From contig JAJRXJ010000315.1 in assembly GCA_024276355.1 (NCBI GenBank), positions 1 to 56,745 of the forward strand: DNA of 56,745 bases. The letters are read 5' to 3'. This document shows, one piece after another, positions 17,667 through 49,450 of this stretch; positions within the stretch are counted from its first letter, which is position 1; the number at the start of each line of letters is the position of its first letter. A program made the translations under genes and the position numbers. Origin of the DNA: Actinomycetes bacterium. GTDB lineage: Bacteria; Actinomycetota; Acidimicrobiia; Acidimicrobiales; Aldehydirespiratoraceae. The notes below the pieces were generated by a model. The model saw nothing but the letters and a program-made list of their open reading frames with translations, had not been told where the DNA came from and made no database searches.

Positions 17667-18719
17667 ATGCACTCTCTCAGCGAGTTTGGTGGTTGGCCGG
17701 GCATCCTCGGCCGGCTGGCCGCCGGCAGGGACCTCGACGCCACCGTTACACGAGCAGTGATGGCGTGCATCCTGGCCGGTGAGGCCTCCGATTCGCAGAT
17801 GGCCGCCTTCATCGTCGGGATGCAGATCAAGGGTGCCACCACCGACGAGCTGTCGGGAATGCAGGGATCGATGCTCGAAGTCTCGAGTCCGCTCAATCTC
17901 CCTCCCGACACCATCGACATTGTCGGCATGGGTGGAGGGGCGTCGCGGCGATCCCATGCTCTCAACGTGTCGACGATGGCCGCGTTCGTGGCCGCTGGTG
18001 CCGGCGCAACCGTGTGCAAGCACGGCAATCGGAAGGCTTCCTCCACCTCCGGAAGCTTCGACCTGCTCGAGGCCCTGGGCGTGCCGGTCGACATCGACCC
18101 GACCACGCTGGAGTCACACGTTGCCGAGGTGGGTGTGGGGTTTGCGTTTGCCCGCACCTTCCATCCGTCGATGCGTCATGTAGGGCCGGTTCGAGCCCAG
18201 CTTGGTATACCCACAGTGTTCAATGTGTTGGGTCCGCTCGCTCATCCCGCCCGGCTGACCCGGCAGGTGATCGGGGTCGCTGATTGGAGTCTGGCGCCGA
18301 CCATGGCCGGGGTTCTGATGGCCACCGGATCGGTGCGGGCTCTGGTTGTCCACGGACAGGCCGGCGACCCGGACGATGCCGGTCTCGACGAACTCACCAC
18401 GGCCGGAAAGTCGCGGATGCTGTCGATCGATCATGGGCGAGTGTCCGAGGTGGAGGTCGATGCCACCGAGTTCGGGCTGGCCCTGGTGGCCGAGTCCGAT
18501 CTGGCCGGAGGTGATGCCGCGGCCAACGCCCGCATCGCCCGGTCGGTGCTCGCGGGCGAACGTTCGGCAGCGCGCGACATCGTGGTGCTCAACGCGGCTG
18601 CAGGTCTTGTCGTGGCCGGCTTGGCCCGGGACCTGGGAGAGGGTGTGATTCAGGCGTCGGCGGCGATCGATGACGGTCGGGCCGAGGCCAAACTGTCGGC
18701 GCTGGTCTCGCGGCGCTGA
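17667..18719 (+). CDS. Anthranilate phosphoribosyltransferase-like (TrpD family) with altered GTGGD motif
   Basis: KHGNRKASSTSGSFDLLEALGV, PTVFNVLGPLAHPA, GLDELT; canonical GTGGD replaced by GMGGG. Confidence 0.8.
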   Translation: MHSLSEFGGWPGILGRLAAGRDLDATVTRAVMACILAGEASDSQMAAFIVGMQIKGATTDELSGMQGSMLEVSSPLNLPPDTIDIVGMGGGASRRSHALNVSTMAAFVAAGAGATVCKHGNRKASSTSGSFDLLEALGVPVDIDPTTLESHVAEVGVGFAFARTFHPSMRHVGPVRAQLGIPTVFNVLGPLAHPARLTRQVIGVADWSLAPTMAGVLMATGSVRALVVHGQAGDPDDAGLDELTTAGKSRMLSIDHGRVSEVEVDATEFGLALVAESDLAGGDAAANARIARSVLAGERSAARDIVVLNAAAGLVVAGLARDLGEGVIQASAAIDDGRAEAKLSALVSRR

Positions 18720-20389
18720 CCCCGCCACACCGCGTGTCGGCCGGTGCCCTTGTGGCCGGCCGAGAATTCGCGGACCGGCTCGGCGTATTCCGCGAGCGGG
18801 CCGGTGACACATTCGAGGGTCATCCGGTGGGCGTTGGCGGAGATCCAGTTGACGATGCAGAGCATCTCGTCGGCATCGGATCGGGAAGGAGGCGTATCGG
18901 GTAGGGCGGTCGGGAAGGAAGATTCCCGCGGGGCGGGTGGCAACAAGGGATGATGGAGAAGTCCGTCGATGATCCGCATGTGGACGCCATCCACGGTAAA
19001 GAGGATGTCTCCGGCGCGGCGAATGGCCTCGAACTTTCTTCTGCGGGACAGAGCCAGCGACAGAGCTGATGCCCGGTCCCTCATGTCGGCAGCCTCTTCG
19101 TATCGCTCCTCGGCTGCCAGTGTGGTCATCCGCTCGCCGAGGCGGTCGAGCAGGGAATTGGGATTCTTGACGATGCCATCAATCAGGAAGGCGACCGATT
19201 TCGAGTAGTCGGCTTCGTCGACGGTTCCGGAACACGGGCATGCAGCAACCCTGAGTTGAGCGGCGGTGCACAGGCCGTCTCGTGTCGGTCGGGGAGACGA
19301 CGGGCCTGACGGAATCCTCGCGTTGCACCGACGTATCGGCACGGCGGTGTGGATGGCCTCGACAATGAGCCGGGCCTGTCTCGTCGAAGAGACCGGACCC
19401 AGATGGAGGTCGCCATCGTTGCTCGGCTGTCGAACGATCGAGAGTCGCGGGAACCGCTCGTGGAGCGTGAGCTTCACGTATCGATATCGATTACTGGTTG
19501 TGCCCTGCTTGTTGAATCTGGGAAGGTGGGCATGGATCAGGCGGATTTCGAGCACAGCCGCCTCCAAGCCGTTGGCGCACACCCGGTGTTCGATGGTGGA
19601 GGTCTGGCGCAGCAACTGCGACACCATGCGACGCTGATCCGACGAGAAATAGCTGCGCACACGGGACCTCAGGTTGGAGGCCTTGCCGACGTAGAGAATG
19701 GCGCCACTGCGTCCGCGGAACATGTAGACACCAGGAGCGCGCGGCAGGCCTTCGGTGAGTCCGAGCTTCGAGGCTTCGGGGTTGCCGGCCATGGTCGGAA
19801 GAGAGATGAGATCGTCGAGTCCGGTGGCGCCCATGGCCGCCGCCCGTTCGATGAGCAGGTGGAGCAGATCACCGGTGGCGAGAGCATCGTCGAGAGCCCG
19901 GTGGCTGGGCTGATGATCGAGCCTGAACCGGTCGGCGAGTGTGTGGAGCCTGCAGTTGGGCACCTCCGGTCTGAGCAGCCGCCGGGCCAGCGCCAGCGTG
20001 TCGATCGACCGGTTCGGCAGGCGCTGACGGTCTTGGGCCCGGAGGGTGGCGTTGATGAATGACAGGTCGAACCTGACGTTGTGGCCAACCACCACCGAGT
20101 CTCCGATGAACTCCAGCAATGACGGGGTGACCGACTCGATACGGGGGGCATCGGCCACCATTGATTCGGTTATGCCGGTGATCACGGTTATCCGGGGAGG
20201 AATCGCACAGCCGGGATTGACCATGGTCTGGTATGTGCCCAGGCATTCACCCCCTCGAAGCTTCACGGCTCCGATTTCGGTGATCATGCTGGTTACGGGG
20301 GAGGTGCCGGTGGTTTCGAGATCAAGCACGCAGAATGTGACATCACGAAGCGGAGTGCCCAGGTCGTCGAAACTTCGCTGGCGAGGCAT
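18650..20389 (-). CDS. DEDD (DnaQ-like) exonuclease fused to GIY-YIG (UvrC N-terminal-like) nuclease
   Basis: FCVLDLETTGTSPVTSMITEIGAVK...VVGHNVRFDLSFI; RAPGVYMFRGRSGAILYVGKASNLRSRVRSYF. Confidence 0.88.
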   Translation of the reverse strand: MPRQRSFDDLGTPLRDVTFCVLDLETTGTSPVTSMITEIGAVKLRGGECLGTYQTMVNPGCAIPPRITVITGITESMVADAPRIESVTPSLLEFIGDSVVVGHNVRFDLSFINATLRAQDRQRLPNRSIDTLALARRLLRPEVPNCRLHTLADRFRLDHQPSHRALDDALATGDLLHLLIERAAAMGATGLDDLISLPTMAGNPEASKLGLTEGLPRAPGVYMFRGRSGAILYVGKASNLRSRVRSYFSSDQRRMVSQLLRQTSTIEHRVCANGLEAAVLEIRLIHAHLPRFNKQGTTSNRYRYVKLTLHERFPRLSIVRQPSNDGDLHLGPVSSTRQARLIVEAIHTAVPIRRCNARIPSGPSSPRPTRDGLCTAAQLRVAACPCSGTVDEADYSKSVAFLIDGIVKNPNSLLDRLGERMTTLAAEERYEEAADMRDRASALSLALSRRRKFEAIRRAGDILFTVDGVHMRIIDGLLHHPLLPPAPRESSFPTALPDTPPSRSDADEMLCIVNWISANAHRMTLECVTGPLAEYAEPVREFSAGHKGTGRHAVWRGQRRETSADSLASARPSSIAADA

Positions 20390-20454
20390 CGCGAAATGTT
20401 GGACGAACAAACGTTCGGTGTCAAACCGGATCGTTCACGGCGAGGCGACCGGTG

Positions 20455-47516: not shown

Positions 47517-47630
47517 GCAGCAGCACCGGGCGGGATCTCTCTGGGTGGTCATCGGCGCGCTCGGTGTCACGCGGGGCGAGAAATGTGTCGAACGCTTGTT
47601 CGGTCGCGCAGAAAGTGGAGTTTTCTGTTG

Positions 47631-47720
47631 CCCAAGTGGCTCATTTAGGGTAATAGTGGGGCGACTAGGAGAGAGTAGGGGAGTTCAGGGGAACTCAGGT
47701 GAGAGTCGGAGTCGGCTGGT
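47631..47720 (+). promoter_or_regulatory. Array of nine 10-bp-spaced GG(G) units upstream of mraZ, candidate MraZ-box array
   Basis: GG at 47638, 47648, 47658, 47668, 47678, 47688, 47698, 47708 and 47718: exact 10-bp register. Confidence 0.6.
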
Positions 47721-47762
47721 GAAACAGTCGAAATCGGCAACGAGACGGAAAGGAGGGTGAAG

Positions 47763-48215
47763 ATGGCAAGGTTCGTCGGGGCATACGAGTACACGATAGA
47801 TGGCCAGGGACGGCTCATTCTTCCGCCCTCGTTTCGCTCCAAGCTCGCCGACGGCGCCTACGTGACCGCACTCGACAATTGCCTGGCCATCATCCCCACC
47901 GAGGAGTTCGACGCCATGTCGGACCTGATGGAGGAGAGCGTCGCCGACGGCGAGTTCGACATCGAGGGCTATCGAGAGTTCTTCAGCCAGGCGATGGACG
48001 TCGTTCCCGACGGTCAGGGCCGCATCAAGATCAGGCCACAGCACGCAGAACTGGCCGGGCTCAACCGCAATGTCGTTGTGGCCGGCGTGGGTAAGCGGGT
48101 CGAGATCTGGGACCAGGAGCGATGGCAGGCCAAGAGCGCCGACCGCTCCGAGAAGCTGGCCGAAGGCGTTGGCAAGGGAATCGGGATCGGTCCCGGGACC
48201 AGACGAAACCGCTGA
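47763..48215 (+). CDS. mraZ: Transcriptional regulator MraZ
   Basis: FVGAYEYTIDGQGRLILPPSFRSKLADGAYVT...DGQGRIKIRPQHAELAGL; SD AAGGAGG. Confidence 0.95.
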   Translation: MARFVGAYEYTIDGQGRLILPPSFRSKLADGAYVTALDNCLAIIPTEEFDAMSDLMEESVADGEFDIEGYREFFSQAMDVVPDGQGRIKIRPQHAELAGLNRNVVVAGVGKRVEIWDQERWQAKSADRSEKLAEGVGKGIGIGPGTRRNR

Positions 48216-48312
48216 ACCACACGGCTCGAATCAGCACACGACCACCAAGAAGCAGACCAACCGAAGATTTCGACAAGACGAAAGGACCCAACACCACACG
48301 ACCGACCAGCGA

Positions 48313-48425
48313 TCATCTGCAGTCTTCCGATCATCAAATGGAAGACCCGTACTCCGCCCGCTTGCCATTAGCCCGATCGGGGGAGAAATCCCGACGAGCG
48401 ACGTTGATCGGGAGACTGCAGATGA
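48313..48425 (+). promoter_or_regulatory. Structured rsmH leader: 21-bp helix (48313-48333 with 48405-48425) sequestering SD and AUG, with competing 7-bp hairpin 48322-48346
   Basis: TCATCTGCAGTCTTCCGATCA versus TGATCGGGAGACTGCAGATGA (all paired in RNA, one G.U); GTCTTCC-N11-GGAAGAC alternative. Confidence 0.75.
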
Positions 48426-49450
48426 CCGGTGCCGGGTCCCGCACAGGTGCGATCACAATGCCATCTACAGGCTCCTCCCCGAACAAAGACGACTCCGACT
48501 CCGACACCGACGAGATCGGGTTCGCCCATGTGCCCGTGATGAAACGCGAGGTGATCGAAGTGCTGTCGCAGGTTCCCCCGGGAGTGGTTGTCGACGCGAC
48601 ACTCGGCGGAGCGGGCCACTCGGAGGCCCTCCTCGATGCCAATCCCGAAATCGTGATAGTCGGCCTGGATCGCGACGAAATGGCACTGGCCGCCGCCGGC
48701 AAGAGGCTGGCCAACCACTCCCACAGGGTGAGCCTCCACCATTGCAGATTCGACTCGCTCGGAGAGGTCGTGCGATCGCTCGGACACGAGGAGATCTCCG
48801 GATGTCTGTTCGATCTCGGAGTCAGCTCACCCCAACTCGATCGGGCCGACCGTGGATTCAGCTTTCGAAATGACGGGCCTCTCGACATGCGAATGGATCG
48901 CAGCCAGGGCCCGACAGCCGCCGATGTGGTCAACGGATATGACGAACCCTCCATCGTCGACATCCTCAGACGACACGGTGACGAGCCGCACGCTCGCCGG
49001 ATCGCCCGGGCGATCGTTGCGGCTCGTCCGTTCTCCTCCACCGCCGAGCTGGCCGAGGTCGTGCGTGATGCCGTCCCCGCGCCGGCAAGGCGGCGGGGTG
49101 GGCATCCCGCCCGGCGAACCTTTCAGGCGATTCGTATCGAGGTCAACGATGAACTCTCGATCCTGGCCGACGCGATCGGCCAGGCCATCGACCTGCTCTG
49201 CCCGGAGGGCCGGTGTGCCGTGCTCGCCTATCACTCCGGGGAGGATCGAATCGTGAAGCGCCTGTTCCGCCGGGCAGCCGGTGAGGTCGCACCCCCGCGG
49301 CCCGATCTGCCACCACCTCCGGGCACGGTGGCCGAGGTCGAGTTGCTGTGGCGCGGTGCCCGCAAGCCCTCAGCCGCGGAAATCGAACGCAACCCGCGCG
49401 CCGAGGCGGCCCGATTCCGAGCGGTTTCCAAGTTGAGGAGGGCGGCCTGA
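48422..49450 (+). CDS. rsmH: 16S rRNA (cytosine-N4)-methyltransferase RsmH (MraW)
   Basis: FAHVPVMKREVIEVLSQVPPGVVVDATLGGAGHSEALL; CLFDLGVSSPQLDRADRGFSFRNDGPLDMRMD; LAYHSGEDRIVKRLFRR. Confidence 0.93.
   Translation: MTGAGSRTGAITMPSTGSSPNKDDSDSDTDEIGFAHVPVMKREVIEVLSQVPPGVVVDATLGGAGHSEALLDANPEIVIVGLDRDEMALAAAGKRLANHSHRVSLHHCRFDSLGEVVRSLGHEEISGCLFDLGVSSPQLDRADRGFSFRNDGPLDMRMDRSQGPTAADVVNGYDEPSIVDILRRHGDEPHARRIARAIVAARPFSSTAELAEVVRDAVPAPARRRGGHPARRTFQAIRIEVNDELSILADAIGQAIDLLCPEGRCAVLAYHSGEDRIVKRLFRRAAGEVAPPRPDLPPPPGTVAEVELLWRGARKPSAAEIERNPRAEAARFRAVSKLRRAA

Follow-up and report, generated by a model that had tools for sequence, protein, structure and literature searches.

Long array of 10-bp GG repeats upstream of mraZ in an uncultured actinobacterial lineage: a probable MraZ operator overlaid with a LexA box

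Few bacterial regulators are as widespread as MraZ, and the manner in which its ring-shaped oligomer reads DNA repeats is only now being resolved. The Escherichia coli operator is situated upstream of mraZ and reportedly consists of TGGG-type repeats with a 10-bp period, a description said to be that of Eraso et al. in 2014. The region upstream of mraZ in E. coli K-12 carries four boxes in a single phase (CAGTGGGAAA, TTGTGGGGCA, AAGTGGGAAT and AAGGGG), which we take to be the known MraZ site. The pattern GAACN4GTTC, which differs from the LexA consensus of this species, gave no LexA box in this region.

The MraZ site of Mollicutes, (AAAGTGKN3)3, has the same form as the consensus repeat found here in other lineages, AAGTGGNNNA (PMC5282649). 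In Mycoplasma genitalium MraZ represses its own operon, and mraW is up by 3.0 log2 in an mraZ mutant (PMC8475190). An excess of MraZ in Dietzia results in elongated, multiseptate cells (PMC9602371). In vitro, LexA binds a site in the mraZ promoter of gut Firmicutes, linking the SOS response to division; the accessible part of that account does not discuss an MraZ array (PMC3998124).

The window described here, a 56,745-nt stretch of DNA, contains nine GG units at 10-bp steps directly upstream of mraZ. This array has the gene, the strand and the 10-bp phase in common with the E. coli operator, which is made of four near-canonical units, whereas the window has nine that mostly retain GG only. 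It resembles the Mollicutes site in its direct repeats, its period, its position at the dcw promoter and, presumably, its autoregulatory role, but the Mollicutes site has three repeats with a well-kept core (PMC5282649). Upstream of mraZ there is a LexA box, as in gut Firmicutes, although those belong to another phylum and their site was characterized in vitro, while the box in the window is known from sequence alone (PMC3998124). The operator type is thus already known, and the nine-unit, mostly GG-only form with a LexA box appears to be a variant of it.

The gene downstream of the array is mraZ (47763..48215, plus strand; PF02381, E 4e-24). Its product matched solved MraZ structures; MraZ entries in the PDB include 1n0e, 9qlr, 9qlg and 9sx6. 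It is followed on the same strand by rsmH, also called mraW (48422..49450, start not settled; PF01795, E 3e-98), the second gene of the dcw cluster. Further downstream, ftsI, murE, mraY and murD were recognized by eye from the translations of the open reading frames, so that the array precedes a dcw cluster whose first gene is mraZ, with PF02381 and PF01795 in order. A ribosome-binding site, AGGAGGG, is found at 47751..47757 on the plus strand. The Rfam search gave nothing at the gathering score in the region, and a single chance-level match within mraZ.

The GG dinucleotides are located at 47638, 47648, 47658, 47668, 47678, 47688, 47698, 47708 and 47718, with zero slips of register, and 43 bp separate the last one from the mraZ ATG at 47763. 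Both the exact 10-bp steps and the end of the array about 40 bp before the gene had been given correctly by the original prediction. All nine units are direct repeats on the coding strand of mraZ, three or more such repeats being taken as the mark of an MraZ operator. The array is intergenic and 10 bp is not a multiple of three, and coding constraint was rejected on these grounds as the source of the period. The original prediction had further placed the units along one face of the DNA. This is only approximately so: a 10.0-bp step on DNA having 10.5 bp per turn drifts by 17° per unit, and by 137° across the array, and the units are therefore not strictly on one face of relaxed B-DNA. They either trace a gentle helix round the DNA or require it to be bent or overtwisted.

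A periodicity of this kind might in principle arise by chance in a G-rich intergenic region, and the genome does contain about a dozen further GG runs of at least six units, mostly in G-rich tracts. GG periodicity alone is consequently not unique, and the count by itself is weak evidence. The mraZ array is nevertheless the longest in the genome; the second-longest run in the window has four units. The comparison with shuffled sequence, which had been proposed as a check, gave nine units in none of 20,000 dinucleotide shuffles of the 246-bp intergenic region (maximum eight, reached once), and in 150 shuffles of the whole window the longest run did not exceed six. The significance of the array comes from its position and its conservation, and it is the conservation at mraZ across phyla, described below, that refutes chance, leaving it a very low probability.

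Predicted promoter elements on the plus strand overlap the first part of the array. A putative -35 element, TTGCCC (47628..47633), corresponds to a TTGnnn that family loci keep some 10 bp ahead of the first GG and to TTGACN in sister lineages. After a 17-bp spacer it is followed by a putative -10 element, TAATAG (47651..47656), which aligns with TANNGT in relatives. A strict scan for the sigma-70 consensus found no promoter, these two elements included, so that the promoter is one that we infer. Transcription is predicted to start near 47663. In this layout units 1-3 (47634..47663, plus strand) would fall within the promoter, units 1 and 2 in the spacer and unit 3 at the -10 element. The degenerate boxes of units 4-9 (47664..47723, plus strand) would occupy the first 60 bases of the leader.

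The position of units 4-9 in the predicted leader, together with their GGAG-like words, raises the question of a function in RNA, in which the units would control mraZ translation by serving as decoy ribosome-binding sites or by forming a structured leader. The leader of the window folds somewhat better than its shuffles (z = -2.5), but relatives have no shared fold (z = -0.5 to -1.5), and a conserved leader RNA fold was rejected on these grounds. Moreover, the exact 10-bp phasing and the location of units 1-3 upstream of the predicted start fit a function in DNA, not RNA. An action in RNA is accordingly considered very unlikely.

The units are of unequal quality. A profile of the canonical MraZ box, derived from other lineages, recognizes units 1 and 3 as canonical GTGG boxes, with scores of 10.4 and 10.1 bits that exceed the 99.9th percentile. 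The scores of units 2 and 4-9 lie close to background, little being kept in these units except GG. The top score in the region belongs to an additional canonical box, AAGTGGAG (box 0; 47613..47620, plus strand), 21 bp upstream of unit 1, whose AGTGGAG is identical in all four congeners compared. The GTGG (TGGG-type) core is present in units 1 and 3 and in box 0 only. The original prediction, which described most cores as AGGGG- or GTGGG-like, was in error on this point, since the units other than 1 and 3 read AGG, CGG or CTGG. It also overlooked this degeneracy, the LexA box, the box at 47613 and the division of the array between promoter (units 1-3) and leader (units 4-9). By its sequence, the operator would consist of two strong boxes and many weak ones. 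Because the GTGG core is missing from seven of the nine units, whose scores are close to background, it may be doubted that MraZ binds all nine.

The comparison covered the upstream regions of 151 mraZ genes. They were drawn from the genus, family, order and phylum to which the window belongs and from named genomes, Firmicutes and Atribacterota among them. GG runs of at least five units with a period of 10 bp were found in 102 of these regions, compared to 0-10 regions for each of the other periods between 6 and 15. The mean longest GG run is 5.16 units at period 10 and 2.1-2.5 at every other period in that range, and a CC control gave mean runs of 1.9-2.2. Period-10 GG arrays precede nearly all surveyed mraZ genes, across phyla. 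In other lineages they usually have 3-5 copies, confirming that nine units exceed the usual number. Runs of 8-10 units were observed at 14 of the 25 family loci that have a LexA-like box, loci which are related and not independent samples, and at none of the 126 others (25 from the family but lacking the box, 30 at the order level, 37 named outgroups, 29 from a phylum sample, four found by the LexA pattern, and E. coli). Past a five-box core, the in-phase extension averages 2.12 units at the LexA-box loci against 0.14 in shuffles, and 0.09 against 0.17 at the others.

A comparison of four congeners showed every pair to share the GG of units 1-8, with no indel, whereas identity at the other eight phase positions is only 39-72% for units 1-3 and 37-77% for units 4-8. 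Invariant GG and fixed spacing between drifting flanks are the mark of selection on both. The repeats and their period are therefore conserved in close relatives, the absence of which had been named as grounds for abandoning an MraZ operator. Together with the gene identity and the survey, this bears out that interpretation: layout and conservation argue that the window array is an MraZ operator.

The operator might be confined to the core, that is to units 1-5 and chiefly to the GTGG units 1 and 3, the downstream GG being functionless relics of box duplication or a weak G-rich leader. The near-background scores of units 2 and 4-9 would agree with this, as would the 3-5 boxes with which all sister lineages work and the 5-6 units found at some LexA-box loci. 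However, such relics would hardly show the invariance of GG observed in units 4-8 of the congeners. Furthermore, 80-85% of the LexA-box loci retain in-phase GG at units 6-8, and most out-of-phase positions are far lower, except those that merely lengthen the same G-tract. A core-only operator is thus judged unlikely.

A G-quadruplex has been proposed for the mraZ promoter of Staphylococcus aureus (PMC11796246), and the window array, which has four tracts of at least three G, might likewise act as one, in DNA or RNA. Yet the array contains no quadruplex motif with loops of 1-7 nt, or even with loops of up to 12, and canonical motifs are rare elsewhere (2 of 79 family loci, 4 of 68 others). The conserved trait, GG at an exact 10-bp phase, is not needed by a quadruplex. 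This possibility was rejected as highly improbable.

The palindromic LexA box, CGAACGCTTGTTCG (47589..47602), is an exact match to CGAACN4GTTCG and is situated 49 bp upstream of the GG of unit 1. The pattern occurs 24 times in the genome and its reversed control not at all. Copies are found at lexA (two), uvrA, a DnaE-type polymerase with a PHP domain and topoisomerase IV, so that lexA and DNA-repair genes of this genome have the palindrome in common. The box ends about 25 bp upstream of the predicted -35 element, its center being about 32 bp upstream. It does not cover the promoter, and simple steric repression by LexA is thus not assured.

Among the family loci with an array, 25 of 48 have a LexA box. 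The distance from the box to the array is 48 or 49 bp in 20 of the 25, and 50, 60, 61 or 70 bp in the other five. In four loci (L009, L053, L054 and L056) the distance of 60, 61 or 70 bp exceeds the usual one by roughly one or two helical turns, a hint that the helical phase between the box and the array may matter. A class-wide pattern search found the LexA motif upstream of mraZ in three further families. Two of these have the 48-49 bp spacing (f118 and f24; loci L244 and L253/L254), and the third has a weaker array (L243). On a tree of MraZ and RsmH the LexA label changes about four times and the long-array label about ten times, giving three independent pairs only (sign test, p = 0.5). Few independent events underlie the apparent association of the LexA box with a long array.

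The locus is probably best described as a long, graded operator for MraZ autorepression, on which SOS control of the dcw operon is superimposed. A single MraZ subunit or dimer would contact the GG of each 10-bp unit. Binding would be nucleated on the promoter by box 0 and the two strong GTGG boxes, units 1 and 3, and the weak, GG-only units 4-9 in the leader would extend the complex through what we infer to be cooperative contacts made within MraZ rings and from one ring to another. Once filled, the array would block RNA polymerase, producing a graded and finally tight repression of the mraZ-rsmH-ftsI-mur genes. The LexA box upstream of the -35 element would add control by DNA damage: when LexA leaves, mraZ would rise, MraZ would shut down its own operon, and, hypothetically, division might pause. 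In Corynebacterium glutamicum, ciprofloxacin lowers mraZ mRNA (PMC5055667), and the direction of the SOS effect may therefore differ. The arrangement suggests that this uncultured group ties cell division tightly both to itself and to DNA damage.

A bolder version of this mechanism, in which MraZ coats or wraps 80-100 bp as a multi-ring or wrapped complex held by GG-only contacts, and in which LexA and the long array together make MraZ an SOS-induced division brake in this clade, is regarded as rather doubtful. Operators of 5, 8, 9 and 10 boxes occur naturally within a single family and form a series in which box number can be related to affinity, cooperativity and repression, and which can show whether GG alone suffices for contact. 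The LexA box at a fixed distance makes a direct link from DNA damage to division testable in this phylum, for which the literature searched contained no description of a link of the LexA-mraZ type.

The window has a second LexA box (20404-20417), at the start of a Cho-like nuclease gene on the minus strand (18653-20410). Its product has RNase_T and GIY-YIG domains and a UVR motif, and the gene is an expected SOS repair target. Further copies of the palindrome are found at the starts of DUF222 genes, some with HNH (L188, L189, L197, L198 and L200), which suggests that this actinobacterial repeat family may be under SOS control.

Between mraZ and rsmH (48312-48430) there is a conserved structured element having a long outer stem and two inner hairpins. 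The hairpins surround an almost invariant core, TACTCCGCCCGCTT, which was located in 44 of 121 loci. The element had no match in Rfam, and the Rfam mraW model, RF01746, had none in this genome. Compensating changes on both sides were found in 18 of 37 predicted pairs (17 sequences), and the element is possibly a divergent or new leader RNA of the mraW type.
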